From: Bacteroidia bacterium
GTDB lineage: Bacteria > Bacteroidota > Bacteroidia > J057
NCBI GenBank assembly: GCA_033391075.1
Contig: JAWPMV010000001.1
Coordinates: 7,874,001 to 7,938,000 of the forward strand
Length of the DNA stretch: 64,000 nt
Reading direction: 5' to 3'
The notes beneath the pieces were generated by a model. It was given only the letters and a program-made list of their open reading frames with translations. It was not told the origin of the DNA and did no database searches. Each line of letters opens with the position of its first letter. The stretch's first letter is position 1. Below are positions 17,264-31,106 of this stretch, in pieces. The translations under genes and the position numbers were made by a program.

Positions 17264-17314
17264 ACAGTTCACGCAAAGAAAATAACCGTTCGCGCTAAAT
17301 ATCAAGCCGTTCAT
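17264..17314 (+). promoter_or_regulatory. Three LytTR-type direct repeats, 21 bp apart
   Basis: ACAGTTCAC (17264-17272), ACCGTTCGC (17285-17293) and GCCGTTCAT (17306-17314) start exactly 21 bp apart. The published LytTR pattern is two direct repeats of [TA][AC][CA]GTTN[AG][TG] separated by 12-13 bp, which gives a 21-22 bp period. Each copy matches 8 of 9 positions. The last box starts 42 bp before the -7-like box (17348) of the small-RNA candidate that follows. The LytTR regulator gene lies 3 kb downstream. Confidence 0.7.
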
Positions 17315-17347
17315 GCTCTATAAACTCACAGATCGGCCCGAAAGTGC

Positions 17348-17355
17348 TAATATTG
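17348..17355 (+). promoter_or_regulatory. -7-like box of small-RNA copy E
   Basis: TAATATTG matches TAnnTTTG at all fixed positions except one. The bases after it (TATTGAAAGG) line up with TATCAACAGG after the -7 box in copies C and D, so transcription is expected to start near 17360. Confidence 0.55.
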
Positions 17356-17359
17356 TATT

Positions 17360-17443
17360 GAAAGGGCGATAATCCTGGATTACAAGAGCAAGGGCTAGGG
17401 TTGATTCATCCCACAGTGGATTTGAGTCCCCTAGTTTTTTTTT
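17360..17443 (+). ncRNA. Small-RNA candidate, copy E (divergent member)
   Basis: A short predicted transcript ends in a hairpin and nine T. The hairpin is built as CTAGGG, TT, GATTCA, TCC, a 6-base loop, GGA, TT, TGAGTC, CCCTAG (17395-17434), the same plan as copies A-D. Relative to those, the outermost pair changed from T-A to C-G on both sides, and one C-G became T-G; both keep pairing. GAGCAAGGG just before the stem is also conserved. No open reading frame is present. It lies about 300 bp upstream of the LytS-type kinase gene. Function unknown. Confidence 0.65.
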
Positions 17444-17738: not shown

Positions 17739-20147
17739 ATGACGCGACAAAGCTGGGCATGGTATACGATCCTGGGTATTTTCTACATTGGCCTCGTTTG
17801 GATGGTCTATGGCTTTTATACTAAAAGTCAGGAAATACGTGCCACCAATGTGGTAGAGGGATTGAATGCCGATTTTGAGGGGAATGACTGGATCACCTGG
17901 GAAGATACCCGCAAAGGGGTAGTCGTCAAAAGAATACATCCTCTTTATAAAGGACAGGCCAGTTTTAAAGAATCCAAAGATCAAATCAAAATAGGGGACA
18001 GGCTGAGGAAAATCGGGGCCAAGGAAATTTTTAATGCCAGTGTTGCAGATAAAATAGCTGCTGAAAATCCTCCTCCTAAACCAGAAGCCTTTTACCTGGT
18101 CCGAACTGATCCTACTCTCTATGAGGAGAATATTTCCATTTTGATGGAAAAAGGCTTTCGCCTGGCTTTCTCTTTTAATGAGATCGGGACCTATTGGTAT
18201 TTGCTGGGTTGGCTGCTGGGAATAGGTTCTTTTGTGGGCATCATTATGCTCGCCATTCTTTTTCCCTTATTCCGAAGCAATATTAAAGACAATGTTCCGA
18301 TGGTGGGCTTGGTAGGCAGTGCCTTCATTTTCTTTATGCTTCAAATGATGAGGCACCTGTATTTGGTGATTGAAAATGATCTCTCTTCCACGGGATTTGA
18401 AAAACTCTTTGTTCTGCTTTATCCCTTACTGACTTTTATGTATGTGGGCTTCTATTTCCACTTTAAAATCAGTACCCGCAATTCTCTATTTAGTATCCCG
18501 ACCGTAATCGTTGCGGGCTATCTTATTTATGAAATTTTCAAGATCGTATATATTGAGCAACAGCTCAAGCATTTCCATGACCTCATCGAACAATATGTAG
18601 TCATATTCTTTTTGCTACATACCCTGGCAGCAGTTGCTATGTTTCTGCTGGAGAATTGGAGGACAAGAAGTTTGCGCAGTTTCCTCGGTTTAGGCATCAT
18701 CGGCCTGATCTCGGCTTTGGGACTTGCCTATTATGGTATGCTTGACTATACCAGCGTAAACTGGTTCTATAAAGAACATGCCTTTTTTATCTATTGTCTG
18801 CTGCTCTTTTTCCCGCTCGTAAATGCGACTTTTCTGCAACTACAATTTGGTAAAGTCAGCCTGGTAGTTACCCAAAGTATCCAGTACCTGGTTTCTATCA
18901 TCATGATCCTGGTTCTTTACCTGGTCATTACGCAATTGTATAATTATGTTCATACAGGTATCCAATACCGGCAGATACTTGAATTTGCGACCCTGGTGTT
19001 TGTTGTGGTGATTCTTCGCCTGCTTTACCTGGCCAATGAGAATAAATTCAGAAAATATTTTGTTACGCCTCAGCAGGAAAGATTACGCAAGTTCAAAACC
19101 TTCATCGCCCGCATCCCACAGTACACCAATTCGGAATTACTAAGGAAGGATTTGATTGAAGAGATGGTGGACTATTTCAATGCGGAAACGGTTCATCTCT
19201 GGTGGAATGTAGATCAGCCGGAAAGTGCCGCAGAACAACGATACCATGTCAAGCAGGAAAACATATACAGAGAGTTGATGAATAATAATACGGTTTGGTC
19301 CAAAACCAAAGAGATTGCGACCTTCCGTTTGAGTAGCGAATTGGAAAAGTCTGTCCTGGACTCTTCTTATACCCTGATCTGTCCCATCACCATCGATCTG
19401 GATACCTATGCCCTTTTGATGTTGGGGCGAAAGAAACGAGGCGTATATAACCTGACGGATTTGGAGCTGATTTCTCAATTGATCCAGCAGACCCAGTTAA
19501 CTCTGAATGTGCTGCAAATGGTTGTGAGAGAAAAGTCTCTGATTCAGCAGACCTATGAGGCGAACCTGACGGCTCTGCGTTCGCAGATCAATCCACACTT
19601 CTTATTCAATACCCTCAATTCTATCGGAGAACTGGTACATGAATCAGCAGATCTGGCGGAAGAAGCTTTGGAAAAGCTGGCTTATATTTTCCGCTATACC
19701 CTCAACAAATCCAGTGAGAACTTTGTGAGCCTCTCTGATGAGATGAGTTTGATTCGAACCTATCTGGATTTGGAAAAGGTTAGATTTGGGGAAAGGTTGA
19801 ACGTACACCTCTCTGTAAGTCCTGAAGTAAAAGATGTGCCTGTTCCTTCTTTCATAATCTCTACTTTGGTTGAGAATTGTATCAAGCACGGGATCTCCAA
19901 AATACTGCATAAAGGTCTGGTCTCCGTTGAGGCAAGTAGGGAAGACAACTACCTGGTAGTAGAGGTTGTAGATAATGGACCTGGTATAGATCTTTCACGC
20001 ATTTATAAAAGTCATGGACTTTCAAATAGCATTGCGCGTTTGGAAAATATATATGAGCTAAAGAACCTCCTGTACTTCGAAAACACCGGTGAAGGGACCT
20101 ATGTGCGGCTGAAAATTCCGCTTGTAGATCTCCCTCAACTGAAGTAA
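17739..20147 (+). CDS. LytS-type sensor histidine kinase with PDZ-like input domain
   Basis: 802 residues. One N-terminal membrane helix (about 8-28) is followed by a periplasmic region whose segment QIKIGDRLRKIGAKEIFNAS resembles a PDZ domain. About eight membrane helices (150-430) lead into a GAF-like cytoplasmic stretch. The kinase core is of the LytS/YehU (HisKA_7TM-like) class: LRSQINPHFLFNTLNSI with phosphoacceptor H620, then the ATP-binding LVENCIKHGI and VVDNGPGID. It should phosphorylate the LytTR regulator encoded 170 bp downstream. The stimulus is not readable. The LytTR-box/small-RNA element upstream suggests autoregulation or linked output (inference). Confidence 0.9.
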   Translation: MTRQSWAWYTILGIFYIGLVWMVYGFYTKSQEIRATNVVEGLNADFEGNDWITWEDTRKGVVVKRIHPLYKGQASFKESKDQIKIGDRLRKIGAKEIFNASVADKIAAENPPPKPEAFYLVRTDPTLYEENISILMEKGFRLAFSFNEIGTYWYLLGWLLGIGSFVGIIMLAILFPLFRSNIKDNVPMVGLVGSAFIFFMLQMMRHLYLVIENDLSSTGFEKLFVLLYPLLTFMYVGFYFHFKISTRNSLFSIPTVIVAGYLIYEIFKIVYIEQQLKHFHDLIEQYVVIFFLLHTLAAVAMFLLENWRTRSLRSFLGLGIIGLISALGLAYYGMLDYTSVNWFYKEHAFFIYCLLLFFPLVNATFLQLQFGKVSLVVTQSIQYLVSIIMILVLYLVITQLYNYVHTGIQYRQILEFATLVFVVVILRLLYLANENKFRKYFVTPQQERLRKFKTFIARIPQYTNSELLRKDLIEEMVDYFNAETVHLWWNVDQPESAAEQRYHVKQENIYRELMNNNTVWSKTKEIATFRLSSELEKSVLDSSYTLICPITIDLDTYALLMLGRKKRGVYNLTDLELISQLIQQTQLTLNVLQMVVREKSLIQQTYEANLTALRSQINPHFLFNTLNSIGELVHESADLAEEALEKLAYIFRYTLNKSSENFVSLSDEMSLIRTYLDLEKVRFGERLNVHLSVSPEVKDVPVPSFIISTLVENCIKHGISKILHKGLVSVEASREDNYLVVEVVDNGPGIDLSRIYKSHGLSNSIARLENIYELKNLLYFENTGEGTYVRLKIPLVDLPQLK

Positions 20148-20317: not shown

Positions 20318-21085
20318 ATGTCAAAATTTCGAGTACTGATCGCTGACGACGAACTTCCTGCACGTAATAAGATGAAGCGCTTGTTGAAAAAGATCAATGA
20401 GGTAGAACTGGTACATGTTGCAGAGAACGGGTTTGATGCACTGGAGCATATCCACTCCTTGAAGCCTGATCTGGTATTTCTGGATATTGAAATGCCCGGA
20501 ATGAATGGCCTGGAGGTAGCTGAAAATATTGAGATGGACGAAATGCCCTCAGTAGTTTTTGCTACAGCTTACAGTGAACATGCGATCAAAGCTTTCGAGC
20601 TAAATGCTCAAGATTACCTGCTCAAACCATTTAATGAAGATAGATTAAGGTCAGCCATAGATAAGGTGGCCAGTAACAAATCCGGAACCGTACTCGATAA
20701 GAAGAAGATTGCACAGATCCTTAAATCAGAACTGGCTGAGGACATCAAGACTCCTTTCGCCAATAAAGTTCCGATTCCAACCAGAGACCGTTACAAATTG
20801 GTAGATTACTCTGAAGTGGTATGTATAGAAGTAGAAGAAAGAAGTGTACGTCTCTTTACCAAAGAAAAATCTTATCTCCTCAATCATACCCTGGATACCT
20901 TTGAGCGTAAATTGCCCGGAGATCAATTCTTCCGCATCAACCGCTCCTGTATCATCGGACTGAAACATGTAAAGGAGATTGTTATATGGTTTGGAAACCG
21001 CTTCAAGATCATTCTAAGTAATGATAAAGAAGTGATTTCCAGTCGTGAGAAATCAAAGATCCTCAAGCAAGTCCTCAAGTTTTAG
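20318..21085 (+). CDS. LytTR-family response regulator
   Basis: 255 residues. The receiver domain (1-120) has the acidic pocket (ADDE at 9-12), phosphoacceptor D56 in FLDIEMPGMNG, and the conserved T/K switch residues (FATAYSEHA, LLKPF). A LytTR DNA-binding domain follows (about 145-253: FFRINRSCIIGLKHVKEI, near the C-terminus). This class binds paired direct repeats with a 21-bp period; such repeats occur in this window upstream of the kinase gene and near secA. It is the obvious partner of the kinase just upstream. Confidence 0.95.
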   Translation: MSKFRVLIADDELPARNKMKRLLKKINEVELVHVAENGFDALEHIHSLKPDLVFLDIEMPGMNGLEVAENIEMDEMPSVVFATAYSEHAIKAFELNAQDYLLKPFNEDRLRSAIDKVASNKSGTVLDKKKIAQILKSELAEDIKTPFANKVPIPTRDRYKLVDYSEVVCIEVEERSVRLFTKEKSYLLNHTLDTFERKLPGDQFFRINRSCIIGLKHVKEIVIWFGNRFKIILSNDKEVISSREKSKILKQVLKF

Positions 21086-26114: not shown

Positions 26115-26144
26115 GCGGTTAAGCCTTTCAATTTGACCGTTCAT
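26115..26144 (+). promoter_or_regulatory. Two LytTR-type direct repeats, 21 bp apart (small-RNA copy A)
   Basis: GCGGTTAAG (26115-26123, 7 of 9 matches) and ACCGTTCAT (26136-26144, 9 of 9) start 21 bp apart. The second box starts 42 bp before the -7-like box TATCTTTA (26178-26185), exactly the distance seen at copy E. They lie just after the secA stop codon. Confidence 0.6.
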
Positions 26145-26148
26145 GCAA

Positions 26149-26179
26149 AAAGGGGCCGAATCAAGCGATTCGGCCCTTA
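26149..26179 (+). terminator. Terminator-like hairpin after secA
   Basis: AGGGGCCGAATC-AAGC-GATTCGGCCCTT forms a stem of about 11 bp. The tail (ATCTTTAT) is only moderately T-rich and also contains the -7-like box of small-RNA copy A, so terminator and promoter are interlocked. Confidence 0.7.
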
Positions 26180-26189
26180 TCTTTATGTC

Positions 26190-26263
26190 AACAGGTTAAA
26201 GTAAAGAATGAGCAAGGGTTAGGGTTGACTCATCCGCAAGGATTTGAGTCCCCTAATTTTTTT
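26190..26263 (+). ncRNA. Small-RNA candidate, copy A
   Basis: A 74-bp unit starting AACAGGTTAAAG and ending in a hairpin plus seven T. The hairpin is TTAGGG, TT, GACTCA, TCC, GCAA loop, GGA, TT, TGAGTC, CCCTAA (26219-26256). It is essentially identical to copies B, C and D over its whole length, and no open reading frame fits. A -7-like box precedes it at 26178 and LytTR-type boxes at 26115 and 26136. It is followed by a shared 20-odd-bp linker and an octamer-type inverted repeat. Function unknown; it could also be a mobile terminator-like repeat. Confidence 0.65.
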
Positions 26264-26284
26264 ATGCCTATAGCTAAGGTATAT

Positions 26285-26367
26285 GTGTTCTGGAGCGCCC
26301 CTGTTCTCGTGTTCTTGAAAAACTACATGAAAACAAGAATACCAGAACACAAGAACACAAGAACACG
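26285..26367. repeat. Octamer-type inverted repeat 1
   Basis: The left arm is built of GTGTTCT-like words (GTGTTCTGG, CTGTTCTC, GTGTTCTTG) and the right arm of their complements (CAAGAATACCAGAACAC, AAGAACAC, AAGAACACG). The arms can pair in several registers. It ends 2 bp from the stop codon of the Kunitz gene and may serve as its terminator region. Confidence 0.65.
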
Positions 26368-30323: not shown

Positions 30324-30397
30324 AACAGGTTAAAGTAAAGAATGAGCAAGGGTTAGGGTTGACTCATCCGCAAGGATTTGAGTCCCCTAATTTTTTT
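30324..30397 (+). ncRNA. Small-RNA candidate, copy B
   Basis: A 74-bp unit essentially identical to copies A, C and D, including the GCAA-loop hairpin and T-run. The preceding sequence differs from the other copies, yet has a perfect -7 consensus TACCTTTG at 30312-30319, 12 bp before the unit. No LytTR-type box is seen at the expected place (30270), and the linker and octamer inverted repeat that follow copies A, C and D are missing. Confidence 0.62.
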
Positions 30398-30535: not shown

Positions 30536-30580
30536 GCAAAATAGAGCATCAAATGCAGCTTTTGCCTGTATATTTGTATC

Positions 30581-30654
30581 AACAGGTTAAAGTAAAGAAT
30601 GAGCAAGGGTTAGGGTTGACTCATCCGCAAGGATTTGAGTCCCCTAATTTTTTT
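30581..30654 (+). ncRNA. Small-RNA candidate, copy C
   Basis: Same 74-bp unit as copies A, B and D. A full-consensus -7 box TATATTTG lies at 30569-30576, 12 bp before the unit. Copies C and D also share flanks: CTTTTGCCTGTATATTTG upstream and ATGCCTATAGCTAAGGTAAA downstream, leading into an octamer inverted repeat. They are 372 bp apart and look like a diverged tandem duplication of a larger module. Confidence 0.65.
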
Positions 30655-30675
30655 ATGCCTATAGCTAAGGTAAAT

Positions 30676-30751
30676 GTGTTCTAGTGCGCCCGTGTTCTTG
30701 TGTTCTAGAAAAGACTACCCGAACACAAAAATACCAGAACACAAGAACACG
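30676..30751. repeat. Octamer-type inverted repeat 2
   Basis: The left arm GTGTTCTAGTGCGCCC, GTGTTCTT, GTGTTCTAG faces a right arm with CCCGAACAC, CCAGAACAC, AAGAACACG. It follows small-RNA copy C after the same linker that follows copies A and D. Confidence 0.65.
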
Positions 30752-30907: not shown

Positions 30908-30952
30908 GCACTTTCACATATCAAAAGCGGCTTTTGCCTGTATATTTGTATC

Positions 30953-31026
30953 AACAGGTTAAAGTAAAGAATGAGCAAGGGTTAGGGTTGACTCATCCGC
31001 AAGGATTTGAGTCCCCTAATTTTTTT
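30953..31026 (+). ncRNA. Small-RNA candidate, copy D
   Basis: The same 74-bp unit, with full-consensus -7 box TATATTTG at 30941-30948, GCAA-loop hairpin and T-run. A 69-codon open frame crosses it (30934-31143) but is a by-product of the repeat, as the conserved feature is the stem rather than codons. Confidence 0.65.
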
Positions 31027-31047
31027 ATGCCTATAGCTAAGGTAAAT

Positions 31048-31106
31048 GTGTTCACGTGCACCCGTGTCCTAGTGTTCTTGAAAAGACTACATGAACACGA
31101 GAACAC
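31048..31106. repeat. Octamer-type inverted repeat 3
   Basis: Left arm GTGTTCACGTGCACCC, GTGTCCTA, GTGTTCTTG; right arm ATGAACACG, AGAACAC. It follows copy D after the shared linker. The words differ from those of repeats 1 and 2 but pairing is kept. The remaining 156 bp up to aroQ hold a short palindrome GCATAATCATTATGC (31138-31152) and nothing else recognised. Confidence 0.6.

Follow-up and report, generated by a model that had tools for sequence, protein, structure and literature searches.

The switching on of a regulatory RNA by a LytTR-type regulator is known from Firmicutes, in AgrA-RNAIII, VirR-VR-RNA and RgaR-SpoZ (PMC4227749, PMC2838878, PMC10602386). In Staphylococcus aureus the LytTR regulator of the AgrC/AgrA system activates an effector RNA, RNAIII, beside its own operon, and the promoter-proximal AgrA repeats are centred near -60 (PMC4227749). 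The VirS/VirR system of Clostridium perfringens uses direct-repeat boxes upstream of the promoter, whose helical phasing is essential, and one of its targets is a regulatory RNA, VR-RNA (PMC2838878). In Clostridioides difficile, RgaS/RgaR activates the small RNA SpoZ through a VirR-like regulator and repeats that lie 21 bp apart, with critical G residues at -51 and -72 (PMC10602386). RgaR bears a LytTR domain. Among the Bacteroidota, the nearest multicopy family of small RNAs that we found comprises the paralogous FopS RNAs of Bacteroides thetaiotaomicron, described with RbpB, in which a single-stranded 5' seed is followed by a terminator hairpin (PMC11697453). In the Gac-Rsm systems (CsrB, RsmX, RsmY and RsmZ), a two-component system drives several RNAs with repeated hairpins; its regulator, GacA or UvrY, is of LuxR type, not LytTR, and the Csr/Rsm motif is GGA in loops.

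The locus described here lies in a window of 64,000 nucleotides (C1:7874001-7938000) of a 9.49-Mb Bacteroidota genome (G000, the "own genome" below), where three LytTR-type boxes precede a small RNA and a LytS/LytTR gene pair. RgaS/RgaR-SpoZ differs from it in phylum and in having an orphan kinase and an orphan regulator, and the relevant sections of its description contain no multicopy family or arrays (PMC10602386). Unlike the present boxes, those of VirR stand immediately upstream of a -35 element (PMC2838878); the RNA found here matches no Rfam family, and its sequence was not compared directly with VR-RNA. RNAIII is a single RNA without an array, and its promoter points away from the agrBDCA operon. 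The relevant sections on FopS include neither tandem arrays nor LytTR control (PMC11697453), and no credible Rfam match links the present RNA to FopS or GibS (window and loci L009, L010 and L151), with the presence of a FopS model in the Rfam copy unconfirmed. CsrB/RsmX-Y-Z is a candidate for how the arrays might work. A repeated hairpin is observed here in arrays of 3-40 units, with capture of a protein remaining hypothetical, and the present RNA differs in its invariant bulged helix.

We consider it likely, with a probability of about 0.77 and in the absence of binding or expression data, that the neighbouring LytTR regulator switches on a multicopy family of trans-acting RNAs, using the boxes as its operator at an activator-dependent promoter. 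As far as Rfam and the literature searched can tell, the RNA family, its arrays and the occurrence of this switch in Bacteroidota are probably new; the literature searched for LytTR and small RNAs in Bacteroidetes gave only genome comparisons, judged by title.

The box site and its gene pair

The features of the site are the following, with coordinates of the window.
17264-17274, + strand: LytTR-type box 1, ACAGTTCACGC, read from the sequence, 84 bp before the -7 box
17285-17295, + strand: LytTR-type box 2, ACCGTTCGCGC, read from the sequence, 63 bp before the -7 box
17306-17316, + strand: LytTR-type box 3, promoter-proximal, GCCGTTCATGC, read from the sequence, 42 bp before the -7 box
17348-17355, + strand: -7 promoter element TAATATTG, TAnnTTTG type with one mismatch (consensus per PMC7366714)
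about 17361-17443, + strand: small RNA "copy E", 92.8 bits with model R1 (which includes this copy), supported by family covariation
17739-20147, + strand: LytS-type histidine kinase of 802 aa (His_kinase PF06580 and HATPase_c)
20318-21085, + strand: LytTR response regulator of 255 aa (PF00072 and PF04397), probably the protein that binds the boxes, without binding data

The boxes and their geometry can be read directly from the DNA. Their motifs (ACAGTTCAC at 17264, ACCGTTCGC at 17285 and GCCGTTCAT at 17306) recur with a period of exactly 21 bp, and TAATATTG starts at 17348, 42 bp past the start of box 3. A preliminary description of the site had claimed three boxes at these positions with a 21-bp period, which held exactly, and had placed them 42 bp upstream of the -7 box of a small RNA, which held when counted from the start of box 3 to TAATATTG. 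Its claim of a fit to the published LytTR direct-repeat pattern also held: the rule requires 9-bp direct repeats spaced 10-13 bp (PMC11347149), and the site has three repeats with 12 bp between the 9-mers, at a fixed place upstream of the promoter and on the same face of the helix (42/63/84-bp register). The repeat of RcoM, TTCNNGCA, is likewise a triplet (PMC11347149), and the window boxes agree with its TTCNNGC part.

With at most one mismatch, the box pair pattern occurs twice in the window against 0.13 expected, and two or more matches were seen in 2 of 100 shuffles. The genome search for boxes with a 21-bp period, proposed in the preliminary description, returned 16 relaxed pairs (MCNRTTCR-N13-MCNRTTCR) in the own genome, including the first window pair; the reversed control gave 3. 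Across the whole 9.49 Mb there is a single strict pair, MCSGTTCR-N13-MCSGTTCR, at C1:4051111 outside the window (reversed control 0), and this form does not match the window boxes, which have A at position 3 in box 1 and G at position 1 in box 3.

A LytS/LytTR pair downstream of the small RNA had also been claimed, and this held: the kinase, with PF06580 and HATPase_c, starts at 17739 and adjoins the Response_reg and LytTR regulator, which starts at 20318, all domains passing the Pfam cut-offs. The LytTR domain of the regulator is 81-98% identical across eight relatives. In the six closest, it reaches 89-98% compared with 82-89% for the receiver and 49-58% for the kinase, while in the two more distant ones the values are 81-82% for the LytTR domain versus 67-71% for the receiver.

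A structured RNA in single copies and arrays

The small RNA claimed behind the boxes was confirmed as an RNA-like element with a terminator hairpin. Copy E consists of a short 5' hairpin, a conserved CCUGGAUUACAAGAGCAAGGG stretch, a long bulged hairpin and a tract of 9 T, the ends of the transcript being inferred. The element belongs to a real structured RNA family, as covariation shows. A two-hairpin fold is common to 11 full-length copies, with compensatory change in 7 of 25 pairs, and across 119 matches (87 distinct) 99.3% of cells are paired versus 88.1% in shuffles, with double changes in 207 cells versus 63.8. Shifting the partner by 1-3 columns lowers pairing to 37-64%. The 119-match alignment was fitted to the model, a bias in favour of its fold. 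The basal and apical stems vary with compensation and the centre of the hairpin hardly varies: it is a 5-bp GANUC/GANUC helix, flanked on the 5' side of each strand by a bulge that is mostly UU. Together with the covariation, array periods that are not multiples of three mark a conserved non-coding RNA, and a coding origin of the arrays was rejected on the same unit lengths of 52, 53, 56 and 58 bp. No Rfam family reached its gathering score in the window, and at E<=1 the loci L009, L010 and L151 gave two chance-level hits, neither credible.

The window holds four further copies, two of them with a single box in register.
26136-26146, + strand: single box ACCGTTCATGC, 42 bp before the -7 candidate TATCTTTA (26178)
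26207-26261, + strand: second RNA hairpin copy, 71.6 bits with model R2
30341-30395, + strand: third RNA hairpin copy, no box in register
30598-30652, + strand: fourth RNA hairpin copy, no in-register box reaching the score
30899-30909, + strand: single box CCCATTCATGC, 42 bp before TATATTTG (30941)
30970-31024, + strand: fifth RNA hairpin copy, a hairpin match

Three duplicated segments of about 187 bp (window 26157-26343, 30548-30734 and 30920-31106) carry one RNA copy each, and two of them run into an 8-bp tandem repeat, a sign that RNA copies were duplicated locally.

The own genome has 27 RNA matches, made up of 9 single copies and an array at C1:3469268-3470205 (L009), 4.4 Mb from the window, in which 18 units of 52 bp are arranged in tandem. 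At the front of this array ACCGTTCTTTC and ACAGTTGATCC stand 21 bp apart, TATACTTG follows 42 bp on, and then comes a leader; after the last unit there is a separate terminator-like hairpin with 7 T. Arrays of 3 to 40 units are present in five relatives.
G003: 40 units of 56 bp; TATACTTG lies at 42 bp, and the three box-like repeats are spaced 22 and 21 bp
G006: 7 units of 56 bp; two boxes with TATGTTTG at 42 bp
G004: 3 units of 53 bp; a pair of box-like repeats with 21-bp spacing, no clean -7 element at 42 bp
G005: 4 units of 52 bp, without a recognisable box pair
G008: 3 or more units of 58 bp, located where contigs end; a single box at 42 bp

Inner array units end in 4-6 T; among single copies, 68 of 79 have a longest T run of 6-9 close to the end, by a rough measure. 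A second terminator-like hairpin lies past the last unit in G004 and G006 as well, and none was seen in the 170 bases inspected after the array of G003. The shorter T runs of inner units and the hairpin past the last unit suggest, by inference, multi-hairpin transcripts formed by read-through. A gene for a dynamin-type GTPase lies directly behind the array in the own genome (L009, 2020-3000), G006 and G005 (relatives' loci L171 and L186); it was not found in the pieces of sequence examined from G003, G004 and G008.

The near-identical strands of the central helix make the motif two-fold symmetric, and this, taken with the arrays, hints at protein capture. A bolder reading, which we regard as no more than possible, is that the family is a new class of sponge RNA, formed as single hairpins and as long read-through transcripts of 3-40 tandem hairpins, that captures a probably dimeric RNA-binding protein, as yet unidentified, through a bulged helix that is invariant and almost two-fold symmetric, each strand reading mostly 5'-UU-GANUC-3'. 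If true, it would be a Bacteroidota counterpart of Csr/Rsm in which a LytTR system replaces GacA. Arrays of up to 40 units raise the question of which protein or target needs so many copies.

Register of the boxes and promoter mechanics

The spacing between boxes and promoters was examined on 124 RNA matches, reduced to 85 by keeping one per copy or array and excluding internal array units and same-place duplicates. One upstream region was too short and two were redundant, leaving 82; automatic picking found no -7 candidate in 9 of these and one in 73, some of them plainly wrong (for example L146, L179, L009 and L172). In the 73 dissimilar upstream regions, boxes scoring at least 13 stand exactly 42, 63 and 84 bp before the -7 element in 23, 15 and 14 cases, compared with a background of 0.0049 per position and no more than 3 at any other offset. 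The next repeat position, 105, is occupied in 3 regions, a count that offsets 30, 43 and 83 also reach. Some regions, 18 of the 73, had been viewed before the score was drawn up by hand; the 55 not viewed beforehand give 15, 8, 8 and 3 at 42, 63, 84 and 105, with other offsets at 3 or fewer. Related copies are not independent, so that binomial values overstate the significance of the register. Across the 24 box promoters, hardly any position is conserved between the nearest box and the -7 element.

A pattern that makes no use of the RNA, MCNRTTCR-N13-MCNRTTCR-N34-TANNTTTG, matched 15 times in 9 of the 119 genomes searched, and its reversed form 0 times. Nine of these matches precede the RNA or a diverged form of it (one each in G004, G012 and G046, two in G098, four in G059); the other six precede other sequence or open frames (two in G017, one each in G059, G029, G041 and G067). 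The own genome has no exact match because its -7 elements differ by one letter, and the search there for a single box, 42 bp and TANNTTTG was uninformative (9 versus 5 in the control). Only 4 of its 10 RNA promoters carry boxes in register, namely three single copies, two of which have one box only, and the array. The 21/42 geometry is likely a general rule of LytTR promoters, with the RNA as its commonest target among the pattern matches, a view inferred from sequence alone.

It could be argued that the boxes are chance or repeat-derived sequence without function, and some of the window copies were indeed made by local duplication. The exact register in 23 of 73 dissimilar upstream regions, and the 15 pattern matches against none in the control, all but exclude this.

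The -33 element of the Bacteroides consensus (PMC7366714) is mostly missing from the box promoters: a TTG lies 21-23 bp before the start of the -7 element in only 1 of 24. A second class of RNA promoters, found in the own genome and in relatives (L010, L124, L125, L151, L186 and others), has TGTWA exactly 47 bp before the -7 element in 11 of 73 regions (next offset 2) and TTG at -33 in 10 of 12, which points to another regulator. The remaining 37 RNA promoters, for which some -7 picks are wrong, show TTG in 6, so the missing TTG alone does not distinguish the box class; it is compatible with an activator-dependent promoter. If the -7 element is taken to start near -11, the transcription start being assumed, the G of the boxes would fall at about -50, -71 and -92, a geometry nearly equal to the G-51 and G-72 of RgaR at spoZ.

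The regulator might instead repress the RNA. A LytTR repressor is known in CoxC, whose three repeats overlap the -35 element (PMC11347149). Against this, at the in-register sites 34 bp separate the end of the nearest 8-bp box from the -7 element, so that the box overlaps neither this element nor the usual -33 position, and LytTR regulators are mostly activators that bind upstream of -35 (PMC11347149), which leaves repression very unlikely.

Synteny with the kinase and further box sites

The RNA was sought in 119 genomes, the own genome and 118 relatives, with strict filters (E<=0.001), and matched in 19: the own genome, 11 of 12 other members of its family (G001-G010 and G012), 5 of the same order and 2 of the same class. 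The kinase (E<=1e-60) occurs in 25 of the 119, and 19 of these 25 have the RNA; none of the 94 kinase-negative genomes has it under the strict filters, nor did a hairpin model recover it in the 14 that were searched again. This co-occurrence was tested by Fisher, without correction for relatedness. When the six kinase-positive genomes that lacked a match were re-examined with the hairpin model, G011 proved to have one and G015 gave a weak hit; G013, G019, G020 and G046 gave none. A phylum-wide search of 395 genomes with strict filters returned the own genome and one weak hit in G294 (E 2.9e-4), which we rejected as a family member and take for chance because no box lies in the preceding 200 bp and it falls inside a 515-codon open frame on the opposite strand.

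Synteny, like the co-occurrence, is a direct observation. In ten genomes (own, G001, G002, G003, G004, G006, G007, G009, G010 and G021, the last from another family of the order) the kinase has the RNA immediately upstream, and in G008 it has array units there. In G046, which belongs to a different family of the class, the sequence just upstream of the kinase holds two boxes with a 21-bp spacing, then TATCTTTG after 42 bp, and a diverged RNA that both RNA models missed and that contains GAGAGCAAAGG and a T tract. In G011 three boxes and, 42 bp on, TATCTTTG accompany the RNA, and the kinase is on a different contig; in G012 and G005 a contig ends near or inside the kinase. No listed RNA match shares the contig of the kinase in G014, G016, G017, G018, G059 and G098, all of other families, with one of three matches unlisted in each of the last two.

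Such an arrangement might indicate that the RNA serves the kinase operon in cis, as a leader or attenuator, and does not act in trans, as its position upstream of the kinase in ten genomes and its terminator-like hairpin end would allow. This is very unlikely given that eight other single copies and the 18-unit array of the own genome are not upstream of this kinase gene, and that at L015 and L021 two RNA copies precede one kinase, each with its own T tract.

A more serious alternative is that a different LytTR protein binds the boxes, the neighbouring pair being linked by chance or itself a target. The own genome encodes 61 LytTR domains above the cut-off, and the box variants ACCATTCAGAACA and ACAATTCACTACA occur elsewhere in it with a 21-bp period. 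Geometry alone cannot name the binder, owing to these 61 domains and to the same 21/42 sets before other sequence (L013, L195 and the six pattern matches). We nevertheless consider this alternative unlikely, as adjacency of RNA and kinase is kept where kinase identity is only 33-58%, including G021 and, with its diverged RNA, G046, and as the RNA is absent from the kinase-negative genomes within the limits of the searches given above.

In the reading we prefer, activation by the neighbouring regulator, the LytS-type kinase would phosphorylate the LytTR regulator, which would bind head-to-tail on two to four direct repeats, the nearest about 50 bp before the transcription start. The repeats are two helical turns apart and so lie on one face of the DNA. 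The bound regulator would recruit RNA polymerase to a promoter that has a -7 element and no recognisable -33, and copy E would yield a small RNA of about 83 nt ending in the terminator, both ends being inferred. The same regulator is predicted to drive further RNA copies in the genome, the 18-hairpin array included, and the RNA would act in trans either by protein capture at the invariant central hairpin motif or by pairing through the conserved GAGCAAGGG stretch; if pairing is correct, mRNAs carrying CCCUUGCUC would be its partners. Phosphorylation, binding, activation, the identity of the binder, the transcript ends, and trans action with its target are all inferences from sequence alone. 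The preliminary description had proposed that the regulator activates a small RNA beside its own operon. LytTR-type control is supported by the comparison, through the fixed 21/42 geometry, the RNA-free pattern, synteny and RNA-kinase co-occurrence, whereas the binder and the activation remain inference; the scope of the proposal was too narrow, since boxes also precede other RNA copies, among them the array 4.4 Mb away. The proposed operator can be tested, and its simple rule of 21-bp repeats and 42 bp to the -7 element can serve to find other LytTR targets.

Several other sites in the own genome carry boxes with this period. At L013 (C1:4051090-4051139), three boxes with a 21-bp period stand 42 bp from TTCATTTG and are followed by about 200 nt that end in a terminator-like hairpin and contain, by eye, a 38-codon frame. 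It was rejected as a site of the RNA family, which does not lie behind its boxes, and could possibly encode a further small RNA or a small protein; it is poorly conserved, with short matches in 2 of 24 relatives besides its own genome. At L195 (C1:2971132), ACAATTCACTACA occurs twice with a 21-bp spacing and CATATTTG follows at 42 bp, before a frame that looks secreted by eye, with a LytTR gene about 4 kb away (2975374). Pairs of ACCATTCAGAAC with a 21-bp period occur at C1:1231773, 1235318, 5641017, 5969999 and 7766732 (L192, L193 and L200-L202). LytTR genes at 1234550 and 1235472 lie about 2.7 kb from the first and 0.1 kb from the second of these, and the pairs, again by inference from the DNA, likely represent another LytTR regulon.
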